Part shown: positions 8 through 27,156 of the stretch, in pieces
How the letters are laid out: each line of letters starts with the position of its first letter
Position numbering within the stretch: the first letter of the stretch is position 1
IMG/VR virus record: IMGVR_UViG_3300042309_000994
Span: 1-31,682 of that record
Origin: a virus
DNA length: 31,682 nucleotides
Strand: one strand, 5' to 3'
Notes under the pieces: model-generated
Databases searched by the model: none
What the model was told of the DNA's origin: nothing
Seen by the model: the letters and a program-made list of their open reading frames with translations, nothing else
Position numbers and translations under genes: made by a program

Positions 8-1324
8 TCACGCACCGACGAGGCCGATGACCGGACCGGCGACGGTGGACGAACCGAGGTTCGGGTGAGCGATCGCCACGCGGGCGACGGCCCGAATCAC
101 GGTCTGGTCGCTGAGGAAGTTCACCTGATCGCTGCTGGCGATCTCGATGGACTGCCGCACGCCGTAGTAGGAGCTGTTGGCCATGTTGCCGTACAGCGCC
201 ATCACCACGCCAGTCGAGTCCGCACCGCTCGGGAGCCGGTCGGTGAGGACCACCGGGCTGCCCAGGAACGTCAGACCCATGCCCTGCGACAGGCCAACCG
301 AACCGCCCTGATTCAGGTCGAGAGCCTGCATGCAGGTCGCGAAGAAGAACGGCGAGCAGAACCACTTGGCGCCCTGACGCGAGTGCTGCGGCACGGCCGC
401 CATCATCGCGAGCAGGTTGGCCTTGGTCACCTCGTCGGGGGTGTCACCGGCAGCGGTCACGAGCGACGCGGCGTAGGTAGCGCCCGAGGAGGCGAGCAGG
501 CCGCCCGTGTGGCTGGTCACAAGACCGGCCACGGCGGGAGCATTCGCCGGGTTACCGCTCCACGCAGCCGCCTCGACGGCGTTGGCGAGCGACAGGCCGA
601 GCTCCGTGGCGATGAAGTCGGCGATCGACACGATGGAGTCCTGGAGCAGTTCGCTCGCGACAACCACCGCGCCCGTCACCTTCTTCGCCGTCAGCGAGAC
701 CTGATTCATGGTCGGGTCGCTGGCAGTGATCGCCGTGTTCTCGTCGATCCAGTACGCGGTCGTTCCGCCGGACCTGCGAGGAAACTGGAGCACGTCGCTC
801 GGCATCGTCACGCTCGTGGCGTTCTGGGCGAAAGCCGAATACTGGTCAACGAGCCGGATGACCGTCGAGGAGAGCACGTCGGGCACCACAGACGAACCGC
901 TGTTCGCCGAGGTCGAACCCATCGCACGGGCCTCGACGCCGTGATCCTGGCACCACCGCTTGGCCTCGGCGTCGCCGCCCTTGGCCTTCAGCCACATGCC
1001 CGTCTTGTAGGCATCCTCGACGCTGTTGAACGCACGCAGGCGGCCCGAGAAGGGAACGGCCTCGATGCGGACCTTGGGCTCATCGGCACGGACCTCGGGG
1101 GCCGGGGTGCAGCGATCCACCACCGACCGCAGGTTCTTGGCCGACTCGACGACCGACTTCTCGAAGTCGATCTTCTTGGCGAGATCACCGGCCCGCTTGT
1201 TCAGCGTTTCCAGTTCGAGGTCGCGCTCGGCAATCTTGTCGTCGTCGCCTTCGATGGCGCGAACTGCGTCGATCCGGTTGGCGAGGGTAACCGCCTCGTC
1301 CTGAAGCTTCTTGAGGTTGTCCAC
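8..1324 (-). CDS. HK97-family major capsid protein
   Basis: This 438-residue protein is the likely main shell subunit of the phage head. Residues about 1-60 are a charged coiled coil, like the delta/scaffold domain that HK97-type capsid precursors lose to the prohead protease. The rest, from about residue 130 (a Gly/Ser-rich stretch and then SSVVPDVLSSTVIRLVDQYS), matches the family's N-arm and HK97 fold, with typical Phage_capsid signatures such as YWIDENTAITASDP and the run through KKVTGAVVVASELL. The start is a GTG preceded by AGGAG at good spacing. It lies downstream of portal, protease and a zinc-ribbon gene, the normal head-gene order. The family call is firm; the cleavage site between the delta domain and mature shell cannot be fixed by eye. 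Confidence 0.95.
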   Translation of the reverse strand: MDNLKKLQDEAVTLANRIDAVRAIEGDDDKIAERDLELETLNKRAGDLAKKIDFEKSVVESAKNLRSVVDRCTPAPEVRADEPKVRIEAVPFSGRLRAFNSVEDAYKTGMWLKAKGGDAEAKRWCQDHGVEARAMGSTSANSGSSVVPDVLSSTVIRLVDQYSAFAQNATSVTMPSDVLQFPRRSGGTTAYWIDENTAITASDPTMNQVSLTAKKVTGAVVVASELLQDSIVSIADFIATELGLSLANAVEAAAWSGNPANAPAVAGLVTSHTGGLLASSGATYAASLVTAAGDTPDEVTKANLLAMMAAVPQHSRQGAKWFCSPFFFATCMQALDLNQGGSVGLSQGMGLTFLGSPVVLTDRLPSGADSTGVVMALYGNMANSSYYGVRQSIEIASSDQVNFLSDQTVIRAVARVAIAHPNLGSSTVAGPVIGLVGA

Positions 1325-1372
1325 TGTGGTGAATCTCCTGGCGGCGGTATTGCCGTGGAGTCCACAGTGCCA

Positions 1373-1543
1373 CTAGCGGGCCGACCTCTTGCAGAAGCGC
1401 ACTTCAGAAACTGTTGTTTTGACAAACGCCACCGCCCGAGCCCCGCACCGGGGGCAGCGTAGATACCGCTGCCGCTCGTCACCGCAGGGGCGGCTGGAAC
1501 GGCAACGGAGTTTCTCGCCGCAGGTGCAGCGTGCTTCAGACAT
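1373..1543 (-). CDS. small zinc-ribbon protein between protease and capsid genes
   Basis: A 56-residue ORF beginning MSEARCTCGEKLRCRS. Cysteines at 6, 8, 13, 20, 30, 33 and 51 include a CxC and a CPRCG knuckle, so a zinc ribbon is likely. The protein is Arg-rich and could bind nucleic acid. Its ATG overlaps the end of the prohead protease gene by 8 bp, and it ends about 50 bp before the capsid start, so it sits inside the head operon. It recalls short Com- or Ogr-like zinc proteins of phages in size and cysteine content, but I cannot show orthology. Function unknown; a regulatory or assembly role is only a guess. Confidence 0.7.
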   Translation of the reverse strand: MSEARCTCGEKLRCRSSRPCGDERQRYLRCPRCGARAVAFVKTTVSEVRFCKRSAR

Positions 1544-2180
1544 TGCGGAGCCTCAGAGTCCACGCCGCAGCGGCGTCACGGACCAGGGAACGCTTCGCAA
1601 TCTCCGCAACCACCTCGGGGGCGGCAGGCGTTTCCTGCGTTGCCAGCCAGGCTTCATAGGAACGCAGGGCAACCGAAGCAGAGGTCTGCGGGTACGCTGG
1701 CACCAGCACCGGGCCCACATCGTAAAGGCCAGAGACCTCCCGAATTTGGCGAATTGCCTTACCGTCCTCGCCAGTGCGGAACGACTCTTGCTTTGGGTCC
1801 ACCGTGAAGGCGAACGAACTGCCCTGCACGTCGCGCCGCTGGATCAGTTCGAGCACGTCGGCCCGGCTCACGGGCGGCGTGACCACATACCGCAGCCCCT
1901 TCGTGTCGCTGGAGAGTTCAAGCGTGCCGCTCGACGTGCGGCCCAGGACGATGTTGCTGTCGTGGTTGAACAGGGCCACCACGTCGCCCTTGCCCCGCTG
2001 CCGGTTCAGAATCTTGTCGAACGCGCCCGGCAGGATCTCCTCGCGGAACCCGCCGAGGTCGAGGGAAAGCCGGTTGTAGACGGCGGCATAGCCGATGATC
2101 GCGGCCCGGCCATCGGCCCGGCTCTCGACGATCAACTCGTTCTCTTCCTCGAAGGCGAAGTCGCGGCGTTCAATTTCCAT
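1536..2180 (-). CDS. HK97-type prohead protease (peptidase U35/S78)
   Basis: This 214-residue serine protease probably matures the prohead by cutting the capsid delta domain and then itself. The start MEIERRDFAF is chosen because its ATG follows AGGAGG at ideal spacing; the reading frame continues upstream but only into the portal gene. Family hallmarks are visible: an N-terminal beta region with IIGYAAVYNRLS, LPGAF, the catalytic His73 in the ALFNHD motif, and the catalytic Ser in GSSFAF (Ser122, by analogy with the usual GxSF motif). The gene overlaps the portal stop by 11 bp and is followed by the zinc-ribbon gene and the capsid gene, as expected for HK97-like heads. The family is confident; catalytic residues are assigned by motif. 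Confidence 0.94.
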   Translation of the reverse strand: MEIERRDFAFEEENELIVESRADGRAAIIGYAAVYNRLSLDLGGFREEILPGAFDKILNRQRGKGDVVALFNHDSNIVLGRTSSGTLELSSDTKGLRYVVTPPVSRADVLELIQRRDVQGSSFAFTVDPKQESFRTGEDGKAIRQIREVSGLYDVGPVLVPAYPQTSASVALRSYEAWLATQETPAAPEVVAEIAKRSLVRDAAAAWTLRLRNV

Positions 2181-3459
2181 CGGTGGAATCCTCCTGTTCG
2201 GCTTCATCCTCGGCGTCGTCGGCCGGGCTGTCTTCTTCCTCGACGGGCGGCGCTGGCATCGGCTCCGGTGCCGGTGGCTCCTGGCCAACCTTGTCGAGCG
2301 TGGTCATGTTCAACTGCACGAAGTGGCGATCACCTTCCGGCCCGATGGGATTCAGGTTCTCCAGTTCCCGAATCTCGTTGATCGTCATCCACCCATTCTG
2401 TAAGGCCGAGACGTAGTAGGCCGACCGGCCAGCGTGATCGCCTCGCAGCATTCCCGAAACGCTGTGCTCTGCGAAATACGTCTCATCGTCAACGATGAGG
2501 TCGCGGCTGATGGCCGCCTCCCACCGCTTCAGGTGAGGCATCAAGCAATACTGAACGAATTCGAGACTCTGGGTCTCGATATTATTGAAACTGCTCCTGG
2601 TGAGATCCTGAATCATGTGGGGCGGCACGCGGAACGCTCGGCAGATCTCGATGACCTGGTACTGCCGCGTCTCCAAGAACTGGGCAGCCTCATTGCTGCC
2701 GCTGAGCTCTTTGGCGGAAACGCCCGCAGGGAGGACGGCCGTTCGGAAAGCCCTGTCGCTGCCCCTGTGCATTCGCTCCCAACTCTCACGTAGGCGCTCG
2801 GCAGCGTCTACGGGAATCGGGTTGCTGCTTTCCAAGATCACACCCGGACGGGCACCGTTGCCAAAGTAGGTGGACCCGTGGGCCTCCAACGCCTGGGCCA
2901 GCCCGATGGCGTTCTGAAAGATCTTGTAGGTGGGGATCGCCTTGATGCCGTCTTCCGTCGTGAACCGCAGGGCGAAAATCTGCTCTTGGCTGTAGATCGT
3001 CTCGCGCCCGTTCGGCTCGCGATACCGATACCGCAGCGTCCCGTCAGACAGCCGCTCGCACTCCATCCGCGACGAGTGCAGCGGCCACAGTTCCGAGACG
3101 GCACCTCGAGCACCAGGGCGGATCTCGGCGTAGCTCGCACCGTAATGCAGGTACATGCCCGTCATCCAATCCCTGAACTCCTGCGCCGTCTGCCAGGGGT
3201 TGGGCTGCTGATGAAGCAGGCGATACACCGGGTGGGCCGTGGCCTTCGCCTTCCCACCGTTTGCCATCCGTTCGTAAACGTGGAGCGGCAAAGCGGAGAC
3301 AGCATCCGAGATCACGCGGATACACGCCGTGTAGGCAGAGCAAGCCATGCTGTTGTCGGCGTTGACGCGGATGCCCGAAGGCGTGCGGCTCGACGAGACC
3401 TCGGGCCAGTCGATGCCACGCAGGTCGAACATCCTGAAGTCGGCGGCGTTTTCGCTCAT
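2170..3459 (-). CDS. phage portal protein (HK97 family)
   Basis: This 429-residue protein should form the dodecameric ring at the special vertex through which DNA enters and leaves the head. The sequence MACSAYTACIRVISDAVSAL, followed by a run through LHVYERM and HPVYRLLHQQPNPWQT, is typical of the HK97/Phage_portal family. Other matches are ASYAEIRP, YRYREPNGRE and the C-terminal stretch FRVPPHMIQDLTRSSFNNIE. The tail is acidic and proline-rich. The reading frame opens upstream, but the ATG at 3459 overlaps the large terminase stop as ATGA, which suggests translational coupling; no strong ribosome-binding site is seen. It sits between terminase and prohead protease, the canonical order. Confidence 0.94.
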   Translation of the reverse strand: MSENAADFRMFDLRGIDWPEVSSSRTPSGIRVNADNSMACSAYTACIRVISDAVSALPLHVYERMANGGKAKATAHPVYRLLHQQPNPWQTAQEFRDWMTGMYLHYGASYAEIRPGARGAVSELWPLHSSRMECERLSDGTLRYRYREPNGRETIYSQEQIFALRFTTEDGIKAIPTYKIFQNAIGLAQALEAHGSTYFGNGARPGVILESSNPIPVDAAERLRESWERMHRGSDRAFRTAVLPAGVSAKELSGSNEAAQFLETRQYQVIEICRAFRVPPHMIQDLTRSSFNNIETQSLEFVQYCLMPHLKRWEAAISRDLIVDDETYFAEHSVSGMLRGDHAGRSAYYVSALQNGWMTINEIRELENLNPIGPEGDRHFVQLNMTTLDKVGQEPPAPEPMPAPPVEEEDSPADDAEDEAEQEDSTDGN

Positions 3460-5018
3460 ATGCTCATGATGTCCCAGGATTGTTCGGGTGGCGGGGCCGT
3501 GGCCGTCGCGTGAATGCCGAGGGCCATCGTCAGCGCCACGATGCCGTCGATGCGTTCGTTGGATTTCGCCTTGCTGGGCTTGATGTTTCCGGCGTGGTCC
3601 TGCTGAATCGCCACGTTCGACGCCTGCCACGCCAAGACGGGATGCCCGCCGTGGTGCAACTTGCCGCCCACCACCAGCGCCTCAAGCTGCTTGGCGGGCG
3701 AACTCATCGAGCCGTAGCCCTGCCCAAAACCTAAGACATTCACGCCATCGCCTTGCAGTTGCGTCGCCAACTGGGTCGCGTTCCAGCGGTCAATCGCCAC
3801 CTGCCGGACGTTGTATTTCTTGGTCAGGGCCATGATGTCGGCCCGCACTTGGTCGAAGTCGGTGACGTTCCCGTGCGTCAGGTGCAGCTTCCCCTCCTTC
3901 GCCCACTGGTCATAGGGCACGCGATCCCGCTTCACGCGCTCCCGCATGTTGTCCTCGGGAATCCAGAAGTGCGGCTCCACCCAGAACGTGCCATCGTCCA
4001 ACTGGAACAGCAGGCAGAAGCAGGTGGTGTCGAACGTGCTGGCGAGATCGAGGCCCGCGAAACACTCCCGGCCGTCAAGCATGACCGGGCACGGCTTGTT
4101 GCCCTGTGCCCAGTGCTCCATTCGCAGCCAGCGAGTATCCTGCTCGGTCCACTGGTTCAGGTGCAGCCGCCGGAAGGTGTTCTCTTCGCTCGGCATATCC
4201 TGAGCACGCTTGCACCGCACCCGCAGGTCGTCGAGCTTCACGCTCACGCCGAGGTTCGGGTTCGCCTTCCGCCAGGTCTCTTCCTTGGTCCAATCGTCTT
4301 CGGGATCGGCGGCGTAGATCGCAGGCAGGAAGGTCTCGTCTTTGATCGCCCCGTCTCGCACGGCCAGGGCGTAACGCCAGATTTCCCAGCAGATGCTCTT
4401 GCGGTCGAACCCCGCCGTGGTGATCGCCACGCACAACGGCTGCCGCCGGGCTCCCGTGCTCGTGGTCATCACGTCCCACAGTTCCCGGTCGGGCTGCGCG
4501 TGCAGCTCGTCGAAGATAATCCCGTGAGCGTTCAAGCCGTGCTTCGTGAACGCCTCGGCCGAGAGTGCCTTGTACGTTGAGTGCGTGTCTTCCCGCACGA
4601 TGGAATTGCGAAACACCCGCAGGCGGCTCCGCAACTTGGGGGAGTTCTCCACGCACACCTTCGCCATCTCGAAGACGAGCCGGGCCTGGTCGCGATCAGC
4701 GGCACACGAGTAGATCTCGGCACCTGGCTCCCCGTCGAACATCAACTTCAGGGCGATCCCGGCACACAGGGTGCTCTTGCCGTTCTTGCGGGGGATCGCC
4801 AGCAGGCTCGTGCGGTACTGCCGCACCTCGCCTTGCATTGTTCCGAAGAGCGTGGAGATGTATTCCTTTTGCCAAGGTTCAAGCAGGAAGGGCTTGCCGC
4901 CCAACTCTCCCTTGGCGTGCGTCAGGTTCTCCTCGAAAAAATCAACGGCAATCGACGCCGCCTCTTTATCAAGCGAACATCTTCGCGTCGCGCTCGTCTT
5001 CTTGCGGGCCTTGGTCAA
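3456..5018 (-). CDS. terL: terminase large subunit (HK97/YmfN-like Terminase_1)
   Basis: This 520-residue ATP-driven DNA-packaging motor and nuclease carries Walker A PRKNGKST (residues about 76-83) and Walker B GIIFDELHA with Asp170-Glu171. It has a C-terminal RNase H-like nuclease domain starting at FAGLDLASTFD (Asp324), with later acidic strands at VAIDRWNAT and RIDGIVAL. Size and motif order fit the HK97-type Terminase_1 family. The only usable start I see in frame is a TTG at 5018, with GAGG upstream. It overlaps the small subunit gene by 50 bp, which is rather long, and the TTG may be a deliberate way of limiting expression. Portal follows with a 4-base overlap. Confidence 0.96.
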   Translation of the reverse strand: MTKARKKTSATRRCSLDKEAASIAVDFFEENLTHAKGELGGKPFLLEPWQKEYISTLFGTMQGEVRQYRTSLLAIPRKNGKSTLCAGIALKLMFDGEPGAEIYSCAADRDQARLVFEMAKVCVENSPKLRSRLRVFRNSIVREDTHSTYKALSAEAFTKHGLNAHGIIFDELHAQPDRELWDVMTTSTGARRQPLCVAITTAGFDRKSICWEIWRYALAVRDGAIKDETFLPAIYAADPEDDWTKEETWRKANPNLGVSVKLDDLRVRCKRAQDMPSEENTFRRLHLNQWTEQDTRWLRMEHWAQGNKPCPVMLDGRECFAGLDLASTFDTTCFCLLFQLDDGTFWVEPHFWIPEDNMRERVKRDRVPYDQWAKEGKLHLTHGNVTDFDQVRADIMALTKKYNVRQVAIDRWNATQLATQLQGDGVNVLGFGQGYGSMSSPAKQLEALVVGGKLHHGGHPVLAWQASNVAIQQDHAGNIKPSKAKSNERIDGIVALTMALGIHATATAPPPEQSWDIMSI

Positions 5019-5427
5019 CGGCAGACACCCTCGACAACGCCGAAGCCGTCAGCCCAAACTCGGCCGCAAACTTCAGCATTTGATTCCGTGCGTCACGCTT
5101 CCGATTCCACGCCGGATGATTCGATACCCTACCTTTGTCGTCCATCAACGTGGTGCCGTTCGCCTTGAGCTCGATGTCGGCCTGCACCATGTCCGCGAAC
5201 GAATCGCAATACGCCGCGAGTGTCTGCTGGTGGCGCGGGCTCATCACCTTTGACGCTTCAAGCATCGGCACGATCCGCTCCCACTCGGCGCGGGCAATGT
5301 CCGACAGCCAGGCGGGGGATGGCGGAACGCCCGGCGGCGCGTCGATGCCGGTCGCGTGCGGCCCTCTAATGCGGGAACCACGCAGGCTAAGGATCTGTTT
5401 AGGCGTCGGTTTACGGCCCTTACCCAT
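4969..5427 (-). CDS. terS: terminase small subunit, P27 family
   Basis: A 152-residue protein that should recognise the packaging site and load the large subunit. It starts MGKGRKPTPKQILSLRGS, a classic P27-family N-terminus, and carries PAWLSDIARAEWERIVPML, AAYCDSFADMVQADIEL and a C-terminal region NHPAWNRKRDARNQMLKFAA, all typical of this family. AGGTG lies five bases before the ATG. Two near-identical 10-bp repeats and a hairpin lie just upstream (5481-5519) and are candidate recognition sites. The neighbours, HNH nucleases upstream and large terminase downstream, match cos-type HK97-like phages, where an HNH protein assists terminase. Confidence 0.93.
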   Translation of the reverse strand: MGKGRKPTPKQILSLRGSRIRGPHATGIDAPPGVPPSPAWLSDIARAEWERIVPMLEASKVMSPRHQQTLAAYCDSFADMVQADIELKANGTTLMDDKGRVSNHPAWNRKRDARNQMLKFAAEFGLTASALSRVSAVDQGPQEDERDAKMFA

Positions 5428-15256: not shown

Positions 15257-16156
15257 CTATTCTACCCCCTCGCCGGGCGGGTCGCAAGCGTCCAGCCAGT
15301 GCATCACCATCCGCATAGCGGGGTCGAGATACAACTTCTGCCCCGTCCGCTCCGTGATGCTGCGATGATAGCCAACGTGCTCGCAATCCTTTTCGCCGTC
15401 GTAGTGCCCGCGCAGGTAGGCGAAGGCGTCGTAAACCGCCATGCCGCCGAACGCAGAGCAGACGGCGAACGGCGGCGAGCCAACGGCTGGCAAGTGCTGA
15501 TGCTTCCAGCCGCCGAGCCCGGCGGTGTAGTCGTCCCAGTAGGCGTTGAGCCGGTAGGCCCACGCGTCGTAATGCACCCAGCCCGCGACGAGCTTCGGCT
15601 GCTTGTCCTCGCCCATCGCCATCGTCGGGTGCTGGATCAGCGAGACGCTCGCCATGCCGTAGGCGTCGGGCGTGGCGTGCAGTGCCCCGATCCCGTGCAT
15701 CACGCCCGCGTGACTCCACCCGCCCCAAGCGTCCCAATCAATCACCACCACAAGATCGTAGGCGGCGCAGGTGTCGGCCACCCACCGCTGGCATGCCGTG
15801 CGGTACTCGGCCAAGGCGATCGTGCGGCGGCCCGCGAACTCGGCCCCGTAGTGCTCACGCCCCAGCCGCTGGCTTGTGAAGGTCGCTTGCCGTTGGGCGG
15901 CGCAGAAGTCGGCCAGCACTTGGTCGGTGTCGTCCGTGTTGTCGTTCGTTTCAATGTGCAGCCGCCACTCGCCGCAGGTCTCGACGAGCTGCTCGAACCG
16001 GCCGAGGTTCGCCTTGAGGTGGGCGGCGCAGTTGCGGGCCAGGCCGACAAACGCCACGCGCGAGTCGCGGAAGTGCGACTCGCCCTCCCGCACCACCCGC
16101 AGGTGGTCTGCGGCGAACGGCTCAAGCGGATAGACGAGGTGATCGGGGATTTTCAT
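15257..16156 (-). CDS. glycosyltransferase-like protein
   Basis: A 299-residue protein that reads as a GT-A-type fold: RVAFVGLARNCAAHLKANLG near the start, an acidic ETNDNTDDT loop at about 69-77, and LVVVIDWDAWGGWSHAG with a DxD-like DWD at 140-142, the usual metal/nucleotide-sugar site. Near the C-terminus, GGMAVYDAFAYLRG and CEHVGYHRSI match acceptor-side motifs of fungal-CAP59-like and bacterial capsule mannosyltransferase-type enzymes. The donor sugar and acceptor cannot be told. The ATG overlaps the methyltransferase stop as ATGA, so the two enzymes are co-expressed and might modify the virion or the host surface. Confidence 0.72.
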   Translation of the reverse strand: MKIPDHLVYPLEPFAADHLRVVREGESHFRDSRVAFVGLARNCAAHLKANLGRFEQLVETCGEWRLHIETNDNTDDTDQVLADFCAAQRQATFTSQRLGREHYGAEFAGRRTIALAEYRTACQRWVADTCAAYDLVVVIDWDAWGGWSHAGVMHGIGALHATPDAYGMASVSLIQHPTMAMGEDKQPKLVAGWVHYDAWAYRLNAYWDDYTAGLGGWKHQHLPAVGSPPFAVCSAFGGMAVYDAFAYLRGHYDGEKDCEHVGYHRSITERTGQKLYLDPAMRMVMHWLDACDPPGEGVE

Positions 16157-16680
16157 CGCTTCACCGCCACGGCCACGCCGTAGGGCTCGAGCACCTGCCG
16201 CCAGACGGCGATCTCCGGCCGCCGCTCCTCAACCCACTCGTCGAACGCCGTGAGCAGGTAGGGATGCGCGGGATGCGTGATGTCGTGAAACGCAACGCAC
16301 CCGCCGGGGCGGCAGAGCGGCCAGACGTTCCGCAGATCGGCCATGCCGCCCTCGTAGGAGTGGTCACCGTCCACGAGGATCAAGTCGAACTGCTGGGTCA
16401 GTGTCGGGATCGTCTCTTTTGAGTCGCCGTCGAGGTAGCGAACCTCGCCCGTGTAGAGCATGCCCGCCAGAAGCCGGTCGATGTGGTCGTGCGAGCCGCG
16501 CGAGGAGCCGCCCCACTCGCCGCCCCATGTGTCGGCACACACGATCGACTCAAGGGCCGGGGCGTTCTCCACGACCACCCGCAGCGAACCGCCGTCACGG
16601 GTGCCGATCTCCAAGTAGGACCGCACGGCGTTCTCTTCGCAGTGGCCCGACAAGAAATCGTAGAGGCTCTGGTTGCTCAT
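16153..16680 (-). CDS. class I SAM-dependent methyltransferase (Methyltransf_24-like)
   Basis: A 175-residue protein with the SAM-binding motif YLEIGTRDGGSLR at about 22-34 and the strand IVCADTWGG after motif II. The FDLILVDGDHSYEGGMADL stretch (98-116) is typical of the Methyltransf_24 family, which acts mostly on sugars or small molecules rather than DNA. A later CRPGGCVAFHDITH completes the fold. ATGA overlaps link it to RusA before it and to the glycosyltransferase after it. A glycan-modifying role together with the glycosyltransferase is the simplest idea; substrate unknown. Confidence 0.82.
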   Translation of the reverse strand: MSNQSLYDFLSGHCEENAVRSYLEIGTRDGGSLRVVVENAPALESIVCADTWGGEWGGSSRGSHDHIDRLLAGMLYTGEVRYLDGDSKETIPTLTQQFDLILVDGDHSYEGGMADLRNVWPLCRPGGCVAFHDITHPAHPYLLTAFDEWVEERRPEIAVWRQVLEPYGVAVAVKR

Positions 16681-17084
16681 GCGATCCGCACGGTGGTCCG
16701 TGCCTCCTGGCCGTAAGACTTCTCCACCACGAGCTTCGCCACCTGCGAGTCGTCCTCGAACGCCACGCCGTTCAAGGCGTCCAGGCACGCCTTCGCCGCG
16801 TTGTCCACGTCGCAGCGGGGCAGCAGCGGCGCACCCTTTCGCAGCCCCTTCTTGGTGAGGTGCGAGGCCGGGCGGGCGAAGACGAGATCGAGAATCACCG
16901 TGAGGGGTTCCGTTGTGGTGGGCGTTGCCCCGGCCTCCAGGGCTGCCGCTGCGATGGATGCCCGGTACGCATGCACCGGGTGTTTGCCCGGCACATACGC
17001 CCGAGCGAAACCGCCCCGCGTCGAGACTCGTGGCCTCGGCTGGGGGACGGGATCGCCCGGCACCTCGAACGTCAACGGCTTCAC
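16677..17084 (-). CDS. rusA: RusA-family Holliday junction resolvase
   Basis: A 135-residue protein starting from a GTG. PGDPVPQPRPRVSTRGG is the classic N-terminus of the family, and the active site is clear: DVDNAAK with Asp92, Asp94 and Lys98, spaced as Asp70, Asp72 and Lys76 of E. coli RusA, and FEDDSQV with Asp111-Asp112 in place of Asp91. It would cut four-way junctions as a dimer, clearing recombination intermediates before packaging. The GTG overlaps the previous tiny membrane gene as GTGA and has GAGG upstream; the long frame before it is not coding. It fits with RecT and the clamp in one early module. Confidence 0.92.
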   Translation of the reverse strand: MKPLTFEVPGDPVPQPRPRVSTRGGFARAYVPGKHPVHAYRASIAAAALEAGATPTTTEPLTVILDLVFARPASHLTKKGLRKGAPLLPRCDVDNAAKACLDALNGVAFEDDSQVAKLVVEKSYGQEARTTVRIA

Positions 17085-17576: not shown

Positions 17577-17813
17577 TCAAGCGTCAGGCTCGGCCCGCCG
17601 CTGGGCGAAGTGCCGCTCACGGCACTCCCGCGCCCGCTCTGCGATCTCGTCGGGCGTCGGGTCCACGATCCGCTTGCGGTACTTGCATACCCGATCCGGT
17701 ATACCGTGCTCGCGGCGCAGTTCGTGCAGCCGTTGCCGCCGGATGCCGAGGTGCGCTGCGATCACGTCCGCAGGCACCCCGGCACCCCACAGTTCGCGAA
17801 GCGTCTCTACCAT
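17577..17813 (-). CDS. small helix-turn-helix protein with DPTP-E-I tail
   Basis: A 78-residue protein starting MVETLRELWGAGVPADVIAA. The core VPADVIAAHLGIRRQRLHEL is a good HTH, and KRIVDPTPDEIAERARECRE forms the same tail seen in the gene at 13916-14263. The start overlaps the sliding clamp stop as TGATG, so translation is likely coupled to that of the clamp. The long open frame upstream is the clamp gene in another phase. It may regulate early or late genes; target unknown. Confidence 0.7.
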   Translation of the reverse strand: MVETLRELWGAGVPADVIAAHLGIRRQRLHELRREHGIPDRVCKYRKRIVDPTPDEIAERARECRERHFAQRRAEPDA

Positions 17814-18922
17814 CAGTCCTTCGCCAACGGCATGATGACCCCGGTGCAGTCGCCGCAGCGCAGCACCACCGCACTCTGAGCGTCCACCGCCTCGACCTCG
17901 ACGGGCTCGGCCTCGTCCACGCCACGCAGGAACTCGACCACGAAGCCGGGGTCGAGAGCCACGCTCGCCGCCTGCCCCGCTTCGAGCAGCCCGCACGTCA
18001 CGCTCGACTGCCCCGCCTCCGCACTCTGAGCCGTCAGGTGGATGCCGTTCTCCACGAAGGCGAACGTCACGCCCTTCGACTGCTCGCTCGTCACGATGGC
18101 CGCCTGCCGCGTCGCCGCCAGCAGCTCGGCCCCGTTCACGAGCGTGGCCTTCGCATCCCGCTCGGGGATCACGTCACGCCACCTGGGGAATCGCCCCTCG
18201 ACGAGCCGGGCCGTGACCACCGTGCCGTCGATGGTCGCCACCACCTCGCGGTCGGTGGCCTCCAACTGCACCGCCCCTTCGCTGTGCGAGGCGATGCTGC
18301 TGATGGTCAGGATCGCCCGCGCCGGGATCAGCGTCGTGGAGTCGTCCACGGCCTGGTCAACCTCAATGCCGTAGGACGAGAGCCGCCGCCCGTCCGTGCC
18401 CACCAGCGTCACCGTGCCATCCTTCACCTCGACGAGCACCGCCCCAAGGGCGAACCGGCTGCTCTCGTTGTCCGTGGCGTAGGCCACCGCCCGCACGGCC
18501 CGCACGAACTGGTCGGCCGGGATGCGGCAGATCGGCTTCACGGTGGGAGTTTCCCACTGCGGGAATTCCGCAGCGTCTTCCGTGGGCAGCGTCCAGGTGC
18601 CGCCACCCACCGCCACCGTGCAGGACGTGTCGCCCGGCGTCAGAGTCACCTCGTCGCCCGACGCGGCCCCGAGGATCGCCTGCAAGCGGGCGAACGGGAG
18701 CAGCAGCGGGGCGTCGGTGTACGGCACCTCGGCCGACACTTGAAGCTCAAGATCGCTCGCGGTGATCCCGCCGTTGGCCAGGAGCACGTTGAGCAGGATC
18801 GGCTTCGGGCTTCGGCTTGGAACGGCAGCCCGCACCGCAGCCAGGGCGGCACGGAGCGCTGCGATCGGTAGGGAGATGCCACTGGCGCGAGCCTTCCGTG
18901 GCTTCGTTGCTGTTGCGGTCAT
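17813..18922 (-). CDS. dnaN: DNA polymerase III beta sliding clamp (DnaN-like)
   Basis: A 369-residue protein of normal DnaN length. ISLPIAALRAALAAVRAAVP and PILLNVLL match the first domain, LVGTDGRRLSSY (TDGRRL at 176-181) the loop that lines the partner-binding cleft, EGRFPRWRDVIP (242-253) the third-domain entry, and the end is CTGVIMPLAKD, where MPL matches the E. coli MPMRL terminus. Cleft residues therefore look kept, so it should bind proteins with clamp-binding motifs. It would form a ring that tethers a polymerase or other factor to phage DNA. No polymerase or clamp loader is visible in the window, so host enzymes are the likely partners. AAGGA precedes the ATG. Confidence 0.93.
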   Translation of the reverse strand: MTATATKPRKARASGISLPIAALRAALAAVRAAVPSRSPKPILLNVLLANGGITASDLELQVSAEVPYTDAPLLLPFARLQAILGAASGDEVTLTPGDTSCTVAVGGGTWTLPTEDAAEFPQWETPTVKPICRIPADQFVRAVRAVAYATDNESSRFALGAVLVEVKDGTVTLVGTDGRRLSSYGIEVDQAVDDSTTLIPARAILTISSIASHSEGAVQLEATDREVVATIDGTVVTARLVEGRFPRWRDVIPERDAKATLVNGAELLAATRQAAIVTSEQSKGVTFAFVENGIHLTAQSAEAGQSSVTCGLLEAGQAASVALDPGFVVEFLRGVDEAEPVEVEAVDAQSAVVLRCGDCTGVIMPLAKD

Positions 18923-19028
18923 GGGAATCCTTTCGAGTTAAAGAGCAACCAACCAAAATGCCCAGGCAGAACGTGGCCGCGTTGGCCGCGATTCCTGCCG
19001 AGACAAGTGCGAGATCGGAGAGCGTCAT
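18747..19028 (-). CDS. small membrane protein overlapping the clamp gene
   Basis: A 93-residue frame starting MTLSDLALVSAGIAANAATF. One clear membrane span (about 7-28, ending LGILVGCSL) is followed by a basic, low-complexity tail. Its ATG overlaps the previous stop as ATGA and GGAGG lies upstream, so its start looks real. The odd point is the end: 176 bp run out of phase through the start of the sliding clamp. Either this is a genuine overlapping pair or a sequence error has moved the stop. The membrane part is credible, the tail less so. Confidence 0.5.
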   Translation of the reverse strand: MTLSDLALVSAGIAANAATFCLGILVGCSLTRKDSHDRNSNEATEGSRQWHLPTDRSAPCRPGCGAGCRSKPKPEADPAQRAPGQRRDHRERS

Positions 19029-19219
19029 GAGTGGGCGGCCTCCAGGGCTTCGAGCTTCTTGGCTACCCGCACCAAACGATTGCAAAGATCTTCGATGGTG
19101 TCGGCGCTCCACTCGTGAAACTTCCTGCTGTCGTCGTCGATGTCGTCCTTCCACGCTTGGATGCGGAGCATCTGCACCAGGACGACGGGCGCGGGGGGCA
19201 GGTAGGGGTTGTCAGGCAT
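19025..19219 (-). CDS. small helical protein of unknown function
   Basis: A 64-residue protein starting MPDNPYLPPAPVVLVQMLRI. The first 15 residues are Pro-rich and hydrophobic, and the rest is a charged helix with KFHEWSADTIEDLCNRLVRV and a final KKLEALEAAHS, suggesting a coiled coil. GGAGGTGG precedes the ATG. It overlaps the LexA-like gene by 8 bp and the membrane gene by ATGA. No family recognised. Confidence 0.6.
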   Translation of the reverse strand: MPDNPYLPPAPVVLVQMLRIQAWKDDIDDDSRKFHEWSADTIEDLCNRLVRVAKKLEALEAAHS

Positions 19220-19448
19220 CGACCACCTCCACGCTGCGGGCCTTGTTCGGGTTGCGACGCAGGTAGCCCTTCTTTTCGAGGGCGTTTAGGTGGCACTGCA
19301 CGCCGTTTGGCGAGGCGATGCCGTGGGCAGCTGCGATCTCTCGCACGGTCGGGGCCGCGAGACGCGAGTTCTCACGAATCCAGTCGAGAAGCTCGCGCTG
19401 GCGGGCGGTCAGGGGCGGTCGGGCTGTTGCGGCTGCTGTTTCGGTCAT
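19212..19448 (-). CDS. stand-alone LexA-type winged-helix DNA-binding protein
   Basis: A 78-residue protein. From residue 13, LTARQRELLDWIRENSRLAA, PTVREIAAAHGIASPNGVQC and a final HLNALEKKGYLRRN match the N-terminal DNA-binding domain of LexA very well. The C-terminal self-cleaving peptidase domain is absent, so it could not be inactivated in the usual RecA-dependent way. It may bind host SOS-type boxes or a phage operator. GAGG lies before the ATG. It sits in the early operon between a DUF1376 replication protein (ATGA overlap) and small genes leading to the clamp. Confidence 0.82.
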   Translation of the reverse strand: MTETAAATARPPLTARQRELLDWIRENSRLAAPTVREIAAAHGIASPNGVQCHLNALEKKGYLRRNPNKARSVEVVDA

Positions 19449-20341
19449 AGGTTTTCCTCGTCCTTGAGTTTCAATCCTTCGGAAATGGCCAACACTTCTT
19501 TTGGCGTGCGGTATGGGGCAGGGCGGTATTGCGAAAACTCGCGGGCCTTTCGCTCAAGCATTTGCCGCTTTGCCATGTCCTCTGGCGTTTTGCCAGCGGA
19601 GCGGTTCGTGCCACCCCTGTCCTGCGATCTGGTCAGCCAGGACACCACAAACCGCCGCCAGTTCGATTTCTTCGCGCGAGTCGGGTTCGACTTCAGCCAC
19701 TCCGAAGCGCGGACCAGTTCGATGTCGAGAACGCAGGCAGGGTATGCCTCGGCCCAAGTCTTGCGGTCGGCGTCGGTTATCCCCTGCCAGCCATCAGACT
19801 CAGACCACTTCACCGCGTTGTGGTGCTGCGAGCGAGTCCGACGCTTCGGCGGATCGCTCGTAGCAACAACCGGCGCAGCCGGTTGAATGATTTCTTCGCT
19901 AGAAGAAATCCCTGAATCTGAAGGTGACGGTGAAGGTGAAGGTGGATGGTTATCGATTGATGAACGATTGATGAACGTTTGCTCAACGTTTGTTGAACGA
20001 TTGCTTGATCCTGCTCGGGCTGCCGCCGCAGCCTTGCCTGCCTCGGATCGCTTCCGGCGCAACTCCACGGCCCTATCGCGGTGCTGTTCCAGCCTGGCGT
20101 TTCGCCGCTGTCCATCCGCCTCCACAGGGAACTTGTCCTGAAGCATGGCCCAAACGTCGCCAACGCCTGGTGAAAGCCGATCCAATGCGTCGAGGTCGGC
20201 AGGCAACCCATCCCTGTCCCACTGAAGCATCAACAAGGTCAGATAGTGGCCGCGCTCGCAGGCCGTCCAACCGATCGTCGAAGTCAGGAAGTCGCGGACG
20301 TACAGGGGCATGTACACGTCCACCTTGTCTTCAGCGGCCAC
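19445..20341 (-). CDS. DUF1376 replication-initiation-like protein
   Basis: A 298-residue protein. Its N-terminal YMPLYVRDFLTSTIGWTACE, followed by RGHYLTLLMLQWDRDGLPAD, is the DUF1376 domain found in phage replication proteins, a winged-helix-like unit thought to bind the origin. A Ser/Pro-rich linker (PPSPSPSPSDSG) follows and then a C-terminal part with WQGITDADRKTWAEAYPACV and KKSNWRRFVVSWLTRSQ. I choose the GTG at 20341, since AGGAGG lies six bases before it; an ATG at 20356 has a poor site. The GTG overlaps the upstream gene by 11 bp. Iteron-like repeats could lie within the linker-coding region but none is obvious. Confidence 0.8.
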   Translation of the reverse strand: MAAEDKVDVYMPLYVRDFLTSTIGWTACERGHYLTLLMLQWDRDGLPADLDALDRLSPGVGDVWAMLQDKFPVEADGQRRNARLEQHRDRAVELRRKRSEAGKAAAAARAGSSNRSTNVEQTFINRSSIDNHPPSPSPSPSDSGISSSEEIIQPAAPVVATSDPPKRRTRSQHHNAVKWSESDGWQGITDADRKTWAEAYPACVLDIELVRASEWLKSNPTRAKKSNWRRFVVSWLTRSQDRGGTNRSAGKTPEDMAKRQMLERKAREFSQYRPAPYRTPKEVLAISEGLKLKDEENL

Positions 20342-20555
20342 TGGTTGCCTCCTCATGCGTCTCAACGGCTTCCTGCCACGCGAGCTTCCGGCGGGCCTCG
20401 GCAACGAACTGCGGCGTCATTCGGCCGATCTCGCGCGAGACGGCGTAGTAAACGTCTGCGTGATGGCCCGGCACGGAGCCGCTTGCCGCCTTGTGCTCGA
20501 AGTGCGCCCGTATTTCTTGCAGCAGCAACTGCGTGAACGTGTTCTTGATTGCCAT
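20331..20555 (-). CDS. small protein of unknown function
   Basis: A 74-residue protein starting MAIKNTFTQLLLQEIRAHFE. It has SVPGHHADVYYAVSREIGRM and ends with a charged helix, AEARRKLAWQEAVETHEE. GGAGG lies at good distance before this ATG; a start four codons earlier would sit over that site. No family is recognised. Its last bases contain the ribosome-binding site of the DUF1376 gene, so the two are coupled. Confidence 0.6.
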   Translation of the reverse strand: MAIKNTFTQLLLQEIRAHFEHKAASGSVPGHHADVYYAVSREIGRMTPQFVAEARRKLAWQEAVETHEEATSGR

Positions 20556-22069: not shown

Positions 22070-22385
22070 CGCTCGATCCTTTCTGTGATGCAAACTCAAG
22101 GGTGTTTCTGGCTGAGAGCAACGCCGACATCAGCCGATTCGTCCAGCGGTCATCCCACGGCGCGTCATCGAAGGCGTCGATCAGCAGCACGAGCCGGGCG
22201 TGGATCCACTTGGCGTGAGCCACGATCTGCTCGTCGGTGAGCATCGGCAGCGACGGCTTCTGCCGACGCTTGCCGCCGCCCTTGGCAGGGCGAGATCGGT
22301 GCGGGCCGATCCCACCCTGCCGGGCCTCGAACTCGTTCCACTCGCCAGTGCTCGGCGGGTGGCCTTCGTTGATGCGTCGAGTCAT
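21966..22385 (-). CDS. small protein of unknown function
   Basis: A 139-residue protein starting MTRRINEGHPPSTGEWNEFE. A basic loop GPHRSRPAKGGGKRRQK is followed by a helical core with MLTDEQIVAHAKWIHARLVL and DDRWTNRLMSALLSARNTLE, and a Glu/Gly-rich tail. The ATG overlaps the RecT stop as ATGA, so it is expressed with RecT. A partner role in recombination is possible but unsupported by any recognised domain; it lacks nuclease motifs. Confidence 0.62.
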   Translation of the reverse strand: MTRRINEGHPPSTGEWNEFEARQGGIGPHRSRPAKGGGKRRQKPSLPMLTDEQIVAHAKWIHARLVLLIDAFDDAPWDDRWTNRLMSALLSARNTLEFASQKGSSDGVARLVDADEAEETAPAAGGSPQEGSGGEAGDA

Positions 22386-23050
22386 CGCGCGTGTGCCTCC
22401 GCGTCGATCTCCTCCGCGTCGAAGTGCTCCACGCCGTTGTCTTCGGCATCGACGTGCGTGATGCGGGCCACCTGCTGGCGGGCCTGCTGCACGTTCACGG
22501 CCACGTTCACGCTCGGCCGCATCCGGTCGGCCTCGTCTGGATCGACGATGCCGCTGAAGCCGAAGGCGTAGCGGATCGCTTGAATGGCGGCCTTGTGCCG
22601 CAGCATGCGGGCTGGCCACTTCTTCCACGGGTCCGTCCCCTGGCGGCACTCGGCCAGATACTCCGTGACCTCCACGGGATGGCTGCGATCCTTGCGATGC
22701 ACCTGGGCGGTGATCGCCACCAGCTGCCCGTCGTCACTCAGGCGATCCACGAACGTGATGCCGTCGTAGGCCGCGTGGCTGTTGGCCATCGTCATCCACC
22801 CGTCGATGCCGACGATGGGCTGAATGCCGCCGCCACGTGTCGGGAAGGCGTAGATCTCCTTCGTGACGGGGTTCAGCCCGTACTCGTTGGCCACGAGCAG
22901 GAAGGCAGCGAACTGCTCCTTCGTCGCCTTGTCGCAGCCGCACGTCGCCCGCACCGTTGCCTCGAAAGCAGCGGGCTCCATGCCGAACTTCGTAGCCATC
23001 GAAAGCAGGATGCTCTTGCGGTCCTGCGTGTTTGCAATCTGCGTCGTCAT
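22382..23050 (-). CDS. recT: RecT/Bet single-strand annealing recombinase
   Basis: A 222-residue protein. FAAFLLVANEYGLNPVTKEI, then YAFPTRGGGIQPIVGIDGWM and the region KWPARMLRHKAAIQAIRYAF, are the hallmark segments of the Bet/RecT family (lambda Redbeta-like). The C-terminus is short and acidic. It would anneal complementary strands at forks or ends. No exonuclease of the lambda Exo or RecE type is visible nearby, so its partner is unknown. AAAGGGA precedes the ATG. The promoter at 23409-23436 and the gene at 23154-23378 lie just upstream, so it is probably early. Confidence 0.92.
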   Translation of the reverse strand: MTTQIANTQDRKSILLSMATKFGMEPAAFEATVRATCGCDKATKEQFAAFLLVANEYGLNPVTKEIYAFPTRGGGIQPIVGIDGWMTMANSHAAYDGITFVDRLSDDGQLVAITAQVHRKDRSHPVEVTEYLAECRQGTDPWKKWPARMLRHKAAIQAIRYAFGFSGIVDPDEADRMRPSVNVAVNVQQARQQVARITHVDAEDNGVEHFDAEEIDAEAHAR

Positions 23051-24073: not shown

Positions 24074-24313
24074 CTAGTTTCGGGAAAACTTGCCAGGACG
24101 GCCGCCGGTTCCCCGGTCCCGCTTGGCGAATCGGAGCACCTCGGCCTCGTCAAAAACGAGGGCGGTAGGGGCGGCGTGCCACGAGTCCAGGCCGCCTTTG
24201 TCGCCCCCGAGCAGGGCCAGCTGGCGCACCCTCCCCATCGAGACGTTGAGGATCTTCGCCGCCTCGGCTGTGGAAATCAGCTTTTTCCCGGTCGGGAGTG
24301 CCACGGTAATCAT
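24074..24313 (-). CDS. small HTH regulator or excisionase
   Basis: A 79-residue protein starting MITVALPTGKKLISTAEAAK. ISTAEAAKILNVSMGRVRQL is a MerR/excisionase-type helix-turn-helix; the remainder includes LVFDEAEVLRFAKRDRG and a basic C-terminus. It is transcribed away from the integrase across a 173-bp control region, the usual place for an excisionase or lysogeny regulator. Its promoter -10 box is only 8 bp from the ATG, so the transcript may start within a few bases of the start codon. Excisionase versus repressor cannot be decided from sequence. Confidence 0.72.
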   Translation of the reverse strand: MITVALPTGKKLISTAEAAKILNVSMGRVRQLALLGGDKGGLDSWHAAPTALVFDEAEVLRFAKRDRGTGGRPGKFSRN

Positions 24314-24321
24314 GCCCTTCA

Positions 24322-24349
24322 ATACTAACGCCGTGGCAAGCGGTGTCAA
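24322..24349 (-). promoter_or_regulatory. strong promoter with possible leaderless start
   Basis: On the minus strand TTGACA (24349-24344) and TAGTAT (24327-24322) lie 16 bp apart. The expected transcription start near 24315 falls 1-3 bases before the ATG at 24313, so the mRNA would be leaderless or nearly so, and the GAAGGG just upstream of the ATG would not be fully transcribed. Confidence 0.65.
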
Positions 24350-24382
24350 AGGGGCGCGATCCGGTTGCCAGCATCGCCTTTC

Positions 24383-24401
24383 CCGCCCGATAATCGGGCG
24401 G
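24383..24401. promoter_or_regulatory. 19-bp palindrome, candidate operator
   Basis: CCGCCCGAT-A-ATCGGGCGG is a perfect inverted repeat with 9-bp arms around one base. It lies between the divergent regulator and integrase genes. Its centre also holds GATAAT, which with TTGCCA at 24365-24370 (18-bp spacing) could form a weak promoter towards the integrase. The odd-length symmetry suits a dimeric repressor. Confidence 0.55.
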
Positions 24402-24443
24402 TGAACAAGGCATCCAGCGGAGGGCACTCCCGCTGAAGTTTTG

Positions 24444-24449: not shown

Positions 24450-24486
24450 AGTGACCGAAGGACCACGGAAAGCGAAAGGAAAGGCC

Positions 24487-25374
24487 ATGAAACTGCGAGA
24501 GTTCCTGCACGAAAGATATGCGATTCTCCACAATTTGAAAGCCCGCAGCGTCGAGCTCTACACGTTCTCGATCGACCGCTTCGGCGACTTCCTCGAACGC
24601 GAGCCGGAACTGTCTGACTTAGAGGATCTGACGGTATCCAAGTTCCTGCGGTGGCGGGCGGTCACGCCACACAAGGGCAAGATCGCACGCCCGGCATCCG
24701 TGGCAAAGGACAAGTGCCAACTGCTCGGCCTGTGGAACGCAGCCGCACGCAAGCGGCTGGTGGAGCACTTCCCCGATCTGGCCCGCAATATCGTCCGCGT
24801 TCCCCACCGACCGCCCCAGGCGTACACGGTGGAAGAGATCAGCCGCATGGTGCGGGTGGCCAAAACCCGGCAGGGGATGGTCGGCCCGGTCCCGGCCGCG
24901 TGGGTTTGGCCGACGCTCTTGATGTCGTGCTACTTCACCGGGGAGCGCATCGGCAGCCACCTCGAAGTGCGCTGGCAGCAGATCGACTCCACCCGCCGCA
25001 CGGTCACGTTTCTCTCGGAACACCGCAAGGGGCTCGGGCGCACGATTACGCGGGCGATCACGCCGCAACTGGTTCAGATGCTCGACGCGGCCCGTCGCGG
25101 CCCTGACGAGCTTGTATGGCCTTGGCTGGAACACCGCGAAATCGGCTCGCTGTGGCCACGGATTCGGGACATATGCCTAGCGGCAGGCGTAACGCCGAAG
25201 GGCTTCCACGCCATCCGCAAGGCGGCCGGTTCCTATGTCAAAGCTGCTGGCGGCGATGCCACGGAGTTCCTGACGCACGCGGACGGGCGAACGACCAAAG
25301 ACCACTACCTCGACCCGAAGATCGTGGGCGAGGCGTCGGCCTTGGATTTCCTGCCGCCGCTCGACATTAACTGA
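24487..25374 (+). CDS. int: tyrosine-family integrase
   Basis: A 295-residue site-specific recombinase, the only confident plus-strand gene. The N-terminal 105 residues form the core-binding domain (ARSVELYTFSIDRFGDFLER). The catalytic set is visible: Arg154 in TGERIGSHLE, Lys181 in EHRKGLG, His241-x-x-Arg244 in GFHAIRKAAG, His264 in FLTHADGRTT and the nucleophile Tyr274 in KDHYLDP. It makes the phage temperate. The ATG at 24487 with GGAAAGG upstream is preferred to an earlier frame start. It runs towards the tail module and ends at a long hairpin terminator. No tRNA fragment or evident attP core was seen beside it. Confidence 0.94.
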   Translation: MKLREFLHERYAILHNLKARSVELYTFSIDRFGDFLEREPELSDLEDLTVSKFLRWRAVTPHKGKIARPASVAKDKCQLLGLWNAAARKRLVEHFPDLARNIVRVPHRPPQAYTVEEISRMVRVAKTRQGMVGPVPAAWVWPTLLMSCYFTGERIGSHLEVRWQQIDSTRRTVTFLSEHRKGLGRTITRAITPQLVQMLDAARRGPDELVWPWLEHREIGSLWPRIRDICLAAGVTPKGFHAIRKAAGSYVKAAGGDATEFLTHADGRTTKDHYLDPKIVGEASALDFLPPLDIN

Positions 25375-25637: not shown

Positions 25638-25984
25638 TCGACGCTCTCCCGGTACAGCACCAGGGCAATGATCGAATACGCCGCAAGGTCGAGCAGCGTG
25701 TCTTCCACGCCGTCGAATTCCACCTCGCCCCGGCGAAAGAACGACCGCAGCCTGTGCATCTTGTCGCTCATTCGCAGCACGCACCCAGCGTAGGCGGGCA
25801 CGTTGATCACGTCGGCCGAATTGCGAATGTTGCTCAGAGCATCATCGTCCTGCCCGTAGTCTTTTGTCTTCCTCAAGTGGAGCGTGCGGATCTCGTCGAG
25901 GATGTCGAGGAACTCGCGCGAGCCGGGCCGCAGTCCCTCACGCATCACGCCATCACCATTGAGTCGGTCGGCCACGGTAATCAT
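25634..25984 (-). CDS. DUF1599/Nmad1-like protein
   Basis: A 116-residue helical protein starting MITVADRLNGDGVMREGLRP. LRKTKDYGQDDDALSNIRNS, then AGCVLRMSDKMHRLRSFFRR and a final VEDTLLDLAAYSIIALVLY, match the DUF1599 pattern, also named nucleotide modification associated domain 1. KxxDYG and the closing DTLLDLAxYxI are the key signatures, and the family resembles MazG-like helical folds. It may handle nucleotides or modified bases. The ATG overlaps the phosphoesterase stop as ATGA. Confidence 0.62.
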   Translation of the reverse strand: MITVADRLNGDGVMREGLRPGSREFLDILDEIRTLHLRKTKDYGQDDDALSNIRNSADVINVPAYAGCVLRMSDKMHRLRSFFRRGEVEFDGVEDTLLDLAAYSIIALVLYRESVE

Positions 25985-27156
25985 CCCTTTCTGGTCCCTT
26001 CGCTGACGTGCATCGATCGCAGCCCGCCATCGGGGCTGTAGAGGAATGTTTCGCATGCCTGTCTAGCCCCGAGAAATCCGTTGGCTGAGTGCCAATCGTC
26101 AGGCGGGCAGATCGTCGGGGCCGTTCGCACGATCACGCCGTCGAGCGTGTCGAGCGGCTTGTTGTGCTCGGCCGCCTGGTGGTGCAAGTGGCCCGTGTGC
26201 CACTCGCGATAGGTGCTGCGGCTCCACGCCTCGCGTTGCTCAAGGGCCATGATCTGCGGGAGTTTCCGCTTCGCCTTGTGCCCGTGCGTGAACCCGAGCA
26301 GGTTGCGCCCGTGCGTGAGGTATTGCCGCGAGAGGAAGTCGGGCTTGATCGTCACGGCCTTTGATCCACGGAACCGCTCCACGAGAATCCGCTGAAAGGC
26401 CCACGTCAGCACTTCGTCGTGGTTCCCGTTCACGATCACCACGTCGGTGGGGGCCGAGGCCGCCGACCGCTCGACGATGCCGAGCAGCGAGTCGCAACCC
26501 ACCTGAATCATCTTCTGCAATCGGCCGTCACGCTCTAGCGGCGTGCCGCCGGTTGTGGTGCCGCTCGGCGTGTCGTAGTGGAAGAGGTCGCCCAGGAAAG
26601 CGATCGTGCGGCGCGTGGGCTTGTGGGCATCTCCCACCGCCACCAGTTCGGCCCCGGCTTTGCCCACGAGCTGCTCGGCCAGGTCGAGGTCGTAGTCGCT
26701 GCCGCCCGTGGTCTTGCTCCACGAGTAAGCCCCGAAGTGCGTGTCGCTGATGACGAGCACCTGCCATAGGCCGTCTGCCTTGGGTGCCTTGACAGTTTTG
26801 GTCAAGGGCTTGCGGAGCGTCTTCTTCGCGGCGTCGATCATCGCCTCGACCACTTCGATGGTCGTCGGCCCGCCCTTCGGCTTGAGCCGCACGAAGACGC
26901 GGTGCAGTTCAATGCTCCCGCCTTCGCCGTCGCCTGTCTCCCACTTTGTTGCCTCAGATGCAGCCACTTCAAAACGCTGCATATCGGCTTCGATATGGGC
27001 GAGCAAATCCTCGACGGTCTTGATCCGTCTGCTCGTGGAGCGGGCTTCGAGCGAATCGCCGTCCTGCCGCTGCGTCACCTGCTCGGCATCGGCGGCAGGC
27101 TTCGCGGGCGGGAGCTTCGATGCCACGGAAGCCGCTAGCGTTTTCCGTTTAGCCAC
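25981..27156 (-). CDS. calcineurin-like metallophosphoesterase
   Basis: A 391-residue protein. Residues 1-125 are a helical and charged N-terminal region with KTVEDLLAHIEADMQRFEVA. The catalytic domain shows all metal-binding motifs in order: ISDTHFG (137-140), FLGDLFHYD (190), NGNHDE (244-247), THGHK (291) and TGHLHH (322-326). Such enzymes cut phosphodiester or phosphomonoester bonds with two metals; a DNA-end or nucleotide substrate is likely in a phage but not shown. The start is a GTG with AGGAG upstream, 22 bp inside the previous gene. Linked to the Nmad1-like gene by ATGA, so the two may share a pathway. Confidence 0.9.
   Translation of the reverse strand: MAKRKTLAASVASKLPPAKPAADAEQVTQRQDGDSLEARSTSRRIKTVEDLLAHIEADMQRFEVAASEATKWETGDGEGGSIELHRVFVRLKPKGGPTTIEVVEAMIDAAKKTLRKPLTKTVKAPKADGLWQVLVISDTHFGAYSWSKTTGGSDYDLDLAEQLVGKAGAELVAVGDAHKPTRRTIAFLGDLFHYDTPSGTTTGGTPLERDGRLQKMIQVGCDSLLGIVERSAASAPTDVVIVNGNHDEVLTWAFQRILVERFRGSKAVTIKPDFLSRQYLTHGRNLLGFTHGHKAKRKLPQIMALEQREAWSRSTYREWHTGHLHHQAAEHNKPLDTLDGVIVRTAPTICPPDDWHSANGFLGARQACETFLYSPDGGLRSMHVSEGTRKG

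Follow-up and report, generated by a model that had tools for sequence, protein, structure and literature searches.

A phage-encoded DnaN-type sliding clamp of probable planctomycete descent with a host-form partner-binding pocket

Phages differ in how far they supply the sliding clamp of their own replication forks. Bacteriophage T4 encodes its clamp, the PCNA-type trimer gp45, together with its own polymerase and clamp loader, whereas lambda uses the host polymerase and has no clamp of its own. A comparable case to the one described here is provided by the Thermus phages Lalka8, Lalka27a, and Lalka27b, in which RecT, a beta clamp, and an O-like initiator are encoded in one module; no polymerase was recognisable in these phages, and host enzymes are probably used (PMC11437467). 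Lalka8 and Lalka27a also carry an integrase and a LexA-like regulator (PMC11437467). The clamp of mycobacteriophage Corndog was noted earlier (PMC4351075). In addition, full-length DnaN proteins of the family PHROG_947 are encoded in the early regions of temperate or small phages, namely Rhizobium phage 16-3, Aurantimonas phage AmM-1, Agrobacterium phage Rivra, Microcystis phage Mae-JY04, and Arthrobacter phage Persistence, and several of these clamps cluster with DnaNs from relatives of the host bacteria. A search of the 50,697 phage records of INPHARED with the E. coli clamp returned 194 matching records, 133 of them with at least 80% coverage; some of the DnaN-matching records are bacterial contigs or seem to carry bacterial DNA. 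Extra clamps are also common on mobile elements, as a near-full-length DnaN match was present in 503 records of a plasmid collection, some of which are chromids or chromosome-sized.

Here, we describe a clamp gene on a linear IMG/VR virus contig of 31,682 bases (hereafter the window, which comprises the whole record). An initial sequence-only reading regarded a host-type clamp in a phage without a polymerase as unusual. This view was not supported, given the existence of PHROG_947, the frequency of 133 in 50,697 phage records, and the Lalka precedent (PMC11437467). Since Lalka clamps without a polymerase are documented, the window clamp belongs to an already known type. The new elements are the apparent single capture of the gene by a large clade of planctomycete phages, the unchanged host-form pocket, the exchangeable initiator/helicase slot, and the iterons. 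The module resembles that of the Lalka phages in the combination of RecT, clamp, and O-like initiator and in the presence of an integrase and a LexA-like gene; unlike the window, the Lalka phages carry a clamp of another lineage (22% identical), encode their own DnaB-like helicase and primase, and infect Thermus. The PHROG_947 clamps listed above likewise differ from the window clamp in being apparently independent captures, with identities of 21–24% where measured. The features of the window are collected in Table 1.

Table 1. Features of the 31,682-base window that bear on the clamp gene and its context.
Feature	Position	Strand	Evidence or remark
Major capsid, protease, portal, TerL, TerS	8..5427	-	Phage-identity genes
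RusA-type Holliday junction resolvase	16683..17060	-	756 bp downstream of clamp; PF05866, E=1.5e-28
Putative HTH protein, 78 aa	17577..17814	-	Overlaps clamp stop by TGATG
DnaN-type beta sliding clamp	17813..18922	-	369 aa, three domains; Pfam, PHROG, AlphaFold2, Foldseek
MPLA, clamp residues 364-367	17822..17833	-	E. coli pocket positions 362-365 (subsite II)
TDGRRL, clamp residues 176-181	18380..18397	-	E. coli pocket positions 172-177 (subsite I); residue list from PMC11139829
W110, phage replacement of dimer-interface Phe (E. coli F106)	18593..18595	-	W in 26/26 phages
Protein, 64 aa, no assigned function	19025..19219	-	Directly upstream of clamp; conserved in 62/95 relatives
LexA-type winged helix protein, 78 aa, without peptidase domain	19212..19448	-	PF01726, E=1.9e-21
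DUF1376 / O-like replication initiator	19445..20356	-	PF07120; phrog_3992 primosomal protein; slot analysis
Tandem 11-bp iterons inside DUF1376 gene	19947..20003	.	Candidate replication origin
RecT/Bet-type single-strand annealing protein	22382..23050	-	PF03837, E=2.4e-27; phrog_252
Tyrosine integrase	24451..25374	+	phrog_1, E=1.3e-17
SbcD/Mre11-like metallophosphoesterase exonuclease	25981..27156	-	phrog_704, E=9e-67; Metallophos_2

The coordinates originally proposed for the clamp, 17813–18922, were correct, with the frame lying on the minus strand, and the description of the product as a full-length three-domain DnaN clamp was borne out by Pfam, PHROG_947, and the predicted fold. All three DNA_pol3_beta domains were detected in order and above the curated cut-offs. 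The N-terminal Pfam model found its best match in the second repeat of the protein, and the assignment of domain I therefore rests on PHROG_947 and the fold. The profile of PHROG_947 (“DNA polymerase processivity factor”) matched clamp residues 21–366 with E=2e-54, covering positions 10–363 of 368. An AlphaFold2 monomer model, built with 16 aligned sequences, had a pLDDT of 89.4 and a pTM of 0.85, and its whole chain was superimposed on E. coli beta by Foldseek with a TM score of 0.88 over 370 columns (rmsd 2.3–2.8). Structure prediction, which had been suggested as a check, thus returned a complete three-domain clamp fold. The start of the protein (MTATATK) and an upstream AAAGGA were conserved. 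PHROG_3007, labelled “RusA-like Holliday junction resolvase,” also matched the window clamp (compare locus L232, 3070–3651), and one of its apparent members, Bcep781 gp15, is noted to be a fragment of Pol III beta. The resolvase label appears mistaken, and the family seems to consist of short phage clamp fragments of ~190 aa.

The head and packaging genes, RecT/Bet, and the integrase on the contig place the clamp gene in a temperate tailed phage. The concern that it might lie on a host contig was answered by the presence of TerS, TerL, portal, protease, major capsid, and integrase genes on the same record; an integrase was also found in 48 of the 56 relatives with room for it. Two scans of the IMG/VR viral collection yielded 35 and then 353 confirmed clamp relatives (loci), and the top 80 were retained. 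The nearest cellular genes were planctomycete dnaN genes adjoining gyrB; the DnaNs of the Planctomycetia (Planctomycetaceae/Pirellulales) are the closest cellular relatives, with identities of 39–45%. In the first tree, 27 phage clamps formed a single clade (SH-aLRT 100) beside planctomycete DnaN, in agreement with the planctomycete link that had been proposed at the outset. In a tree with wider sampling, the phage clade was placed inside Planctomycetia, next to the Planctomycetaceae/Pirellulales group (98), on a long stem branch that set it apart from the gyrB-linked housekeeping genes. An origin outside Planctomycetota was rejected (AU p=0.011). A topology with Planctomycetia as one clade without the phages was not rejected (AU p=0.17); nesting inside the class is therefore favoured but not compelled. 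Judged from these phylogenies, the phage clade goes back to one ancient capture of a Planctomycetota dnaN, and the source was most likely a member of Planctomycetia. The dN/dS values of 0.09–0.27 across the clade indicated purifying selection, which rules out a chance open reading frame.

Other phage clamps occupied different positions in the tree: those of 16-3 and AmM-1 clustered with Sinorhizobium and that of Persistence with Nocardia, several of these branches being long. This suggests that phage clamps have been captured repeatedly from host lineages. Judged from phylogeny, the hosts of the phage clade described here are probably planctomycete bacteria. No provirus with a clamp of the phage type was found among the matches listed from 392 planctomycete genomes. 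A 56%-identical contig (L045) in a Phycisphaerales MAG does not prove the host, since the contig is phage-like and a distinct chromosomal dnaN lies in the same bin. In one planctomycete MAG (G044), two dnaN-gyrB loci (L046 and L050) were located on different contigs, which could reflect strain mixing or a real duplication.

The peptide-binding pocket of E. coli beta comprises 18 residues in two subsites (PMC11139829). The TDGRRL and C-terminal MPL motifs pointed out in the sequence-only reading are present at residues 176–181 and, as MPLA, 364–367 of the window clamp; they differ from the E. coli TDGHRL and MPM by the same departures that are seen in planctomycete DnaNs. We compared the pocket in 26 phage clamps, non-redundant at 90%, with the pocket of the closest chromosomal DnaNs from planctomycetes. 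The consensus residues were equal at 18 of 18 pocket positions, compared with 147 of 323 positions elsewhere (Fisher p=1.3e-6), so the supposed retention of the partner cleft was confirmed by this comparison. Within the phage set, mean entropy was 0.30 bits in the pocket and 1.30 bits elsewhere. Because some of the scans used to collect relatives relied on patterns inside the cleft, the conservation test was repeated on the relatives of the first scan with the C-terminal pocket residues omitted; it gave p=0.0005, an earlier 14-residue pocket set being used. On the host side, QKNLF, QQNLF, QKSLF, or QRSLF was found in the Pol III alpha of several planctomycete genomes at the place that corresponds to the clamp motif of E. 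coli Pol III alpha. Pocket conservation, the match to the planctomycete consensus, and these alpha motifs together argue that the phage pocket is kept in a host-compatible form, as far as residue comparison can tell.

Comparison of the gene neighbourhoods demonstrated that the clamp is part of a replication module with one exchangeable position. In the 83 relatives whose contigs reached far enough upstream, the slot preceding the clamp was occupied by a DUF1376/O-like initiator gene in 75 contigs and by a DnaB helicase of ~580–620 aa in seven (L148, L142, L126, L134, L140, L162, and L029), never by both; the single contig with neither had an extra open reading frame between its DUF1376 gene and the clamp. 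On the tree of the clamps, a minimum of six switches between the DUF1376 and DnaB states was counted, which means that the clamp stayed while the initiator was exchanged. The mutually exclusive exchange lends indirect support to an initiator that would bind the iterons and recruit DnaB. Downstream, RusA was located within 3.6 kb of the clamp in 31 of 31 records by a six-frame family search, in two of them across the contig ends. RecT was found in 23 of the 31 records with the Pfam profile, and a pairwise search gave 15 of 72; the clamp thus tracks the initiation slot and RusA more tightly than RecT. RecT, DUF1376, and RusA, which had been assigned to one early operon with the clamp, are all present on the same strand, and a single transcript is plausible. 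The TGATG junction between the clamp and the following gene is likewise real, whereas the HTH identity of that gene depends on weak matches (phrog_323, E=9e-4; HTH_17, E=0.47). Its homologs adjoin the clamp in 75 of 95 relatives. The LexA-type winged helix gene does so in 74 of 95, and its product could be a regulator or a part of the initiation complex. A Methyltransf_24 domain protein (16153–16700) is encoded downstream of RusA; its gene overlaps RusA in another frame, and its start is uncertain.

The statement that neither a polymerase nor a clamp loader was in view was extended to the relatives. Pol III alpha was not found in 44 of their records, and neither Pol A nor a delta-prime-type loader subunit was found in 31, including G017 and G019. 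A complete phage replisome of the T4 type, with polymerase and loader, was accordingly not seen in the relatives searched for Pol III alpha, Pol A, and delta-prime; these records have no CheckV completeness value, none is rated at least 90% complete, and a polymerase of a divergent family, such as Pol B, is possible. In G017 and G019, the records of loci L029 and L032, the gene order reaches the contig end with the clamp and resumes at the contig start with RusA, which suggests that both genomes are circularly permuted and nearly complete, at 47 and 49 kb.

The DUF1376 gene itself may contain the origin of replication. Tandem arrays were present in 30 of 52 distinct DUF1376 relatives, 21 of them with an 11-bp unit, compared with 5 of 183 control open reading frames. 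As 11 is not a multiple of three, a repetitive peptide does not account for the 11-bp arrays. The lambda O gene contains the iterons of the lambda origin, and the window resembles lambda in having an initiator gene with internal iterons beside replication genes. The two differ in that DUF1376 is another type of initiator and in that the helicase of a window-type phage would be that of the host or a phage DnaB. By this analysis, the iteron array is a candidate origin of the phage.

We consider it probable (about 0.7) that the gene encodes a working beta clamp of a temperate planctomycete phage and that the host loader and Pol III act on the clamp supplied by the phage. Theta replication would start at the iterons within the DUF1376 gene: the initiator encoded there would melt this origin in the manner of lambda O and engage the DnaB of the host, or in some relatives that of the phage itself. 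The delta subunit of the host loader would open the phage clamp via the same pocket and load it on phage primers, and host Pol III alpha would then dock by its QxxLF motif and copy the phage DNA. A copy of the clamp gene on the phage would provide clamps on demand for bulk replication and make phage synthesis independent of the control that the host exerts on DnaN. RecT, the SbcD-like nuclease, and RusA would serve recombination-dependent late replication and the resolution of branches. Since the polymerase-binding pocket of the host is retained, the virus most likely runs the host polymerase on its own DNA; among the roles named in the sequence-only reading, recruitment of host Pol III became the leading one, with the 18/18 host-form pocket and the QxxLF motifs of host Pol III alpha behind it. 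Gene content, conservation, and ancestry come directly from the computations; clamp loading, partner binding, and a benefit to the phage are inferred, and on this reading the protein would be a dimeric ring that can be loaded on DNA and stimulates Pol III. Several points speak against this reading. The DNA-channel residues R24, K198, R240, and R279 of E. coli are kept as basic residues in the phages, but R80 is lost and R205 variable, while both of these channel/loading residues are retained by the hosts; charged residues of the dimer seam have been lost relative to the hosts; and the contig is a 31.7-kb linear fragment, which leaves room for a polymerase of a divergent family.

The dimer seam admits a further reading, which refines the working-clamp interpretation rather than opposing it. 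With the host pocket unchanged and the seam rebuilt, the phage protein would form only homodimers, giving a private but host-compatible ring that escapes host control or clamp-directed defence and lets phage replication go on when blockage, regulation, or a defence affects the host clamp. The residue at the position of E. coli F106 is tryptophan in 26 of 26 non-redundant phages and phenylalanine in 100% of the nearest planctomycetes; charged residues on strand 103–109 fall from 2.6 per sequence in the near hosts to 0.8 in the phages, the partner strand is altered as well (E305T and L306C), and the long stem branch is consistent with a clamp that diverged once it had been captured. The reworked seam, with its fixed F106W, is thus a suggestive hint of a private homodimer. 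Against this, changes were no more frequent at dimer-interface positions than at the other conserved ones (Fisher p=0.2–0.6), no phage-encoded inhibitor of the host clamp came to light, and the structure was predicted as a monomer only. The hydrophobic core of the interface is kept, I78, F106, I272, and L273 of E. coli being I, W, I, and V in the phage clamp, and the K74/E298 pair is kept as R/E, with R103 variable. As the interface changes are not enriched, we regard the private ring as a tentative and rather doubtful proposal.

It is somewhat less likely still that the clamp mainly serves as a recombination platform, tethering RecT, the SbcD-like nuclease, or RusA at breaks and forks while bulk synthesis proceeds on the host clamp. 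The constant company of RusA (31/31 records), the frequent presence of RecT (23/31), and the SbcD-like nuclease gene would fit such a role, but RecT accompanies the clamp less steadily than the initiator/helicase slot does, and a pocket kept in host form is expected for host partners. Moreover, a scan without the RusA frame found no QxxLF-type motif in RecT, the nuclease, DUF1376, or the proteins of no assigned function adjoining the clamp. The search of the phage proteins for clamp-binding motifs that had been recommended gave no more than a handful of loose matches of the QxxL[FL] type, namely QLALL (24074–24466), QRELL in the LexA-like helix, QQELF (30514–31680), QQVIL (27497–28096), and QRLLRL in an HNH protein. 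The loading platform for phage recombinases put forward in the sequence-only reading therefore received no specific support, given that the clamp follows the initiation slot and RusA more than RecT, and neither did competition with the host clamp. An intact host-type pocket could in principle compete for host partners, and the protein might then be a decoy or poison that titrates them and shuts off host replication; yet a decoy would need neither the whole three-domain fold nor a place beside a slot whose initiator was exchanged at least six times, and the clamp is kept by temperate phages, all of which makes this role highly improbable. Descent from a host dnaN is what a functionless captured passenger or a mis-binned host gene would also show, but with head and packaging genes on the same contig, a large viral clade carrying the clamp, dN/dS of 0.09–0.27, and gyrB linkage of the host dnaN copies, this explanation is scarcely credible.

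If the gene encodes a working clamp, as we prefer, it would offer a clear natural case in which to ask why a phage would supply a clamp to a host polymerase. Polymerase-less phages could in principle borrow the whole fork; this large environmental clade keeps its own clamp with a host-form pocket. The combination of an iteron-bearing initiator or a helicase with the clamp and RusA forms a module compact enough for rebuilding in vitro, and the finding extends knowledge of replication to planctomycete phages, on which a literature search turned up little.
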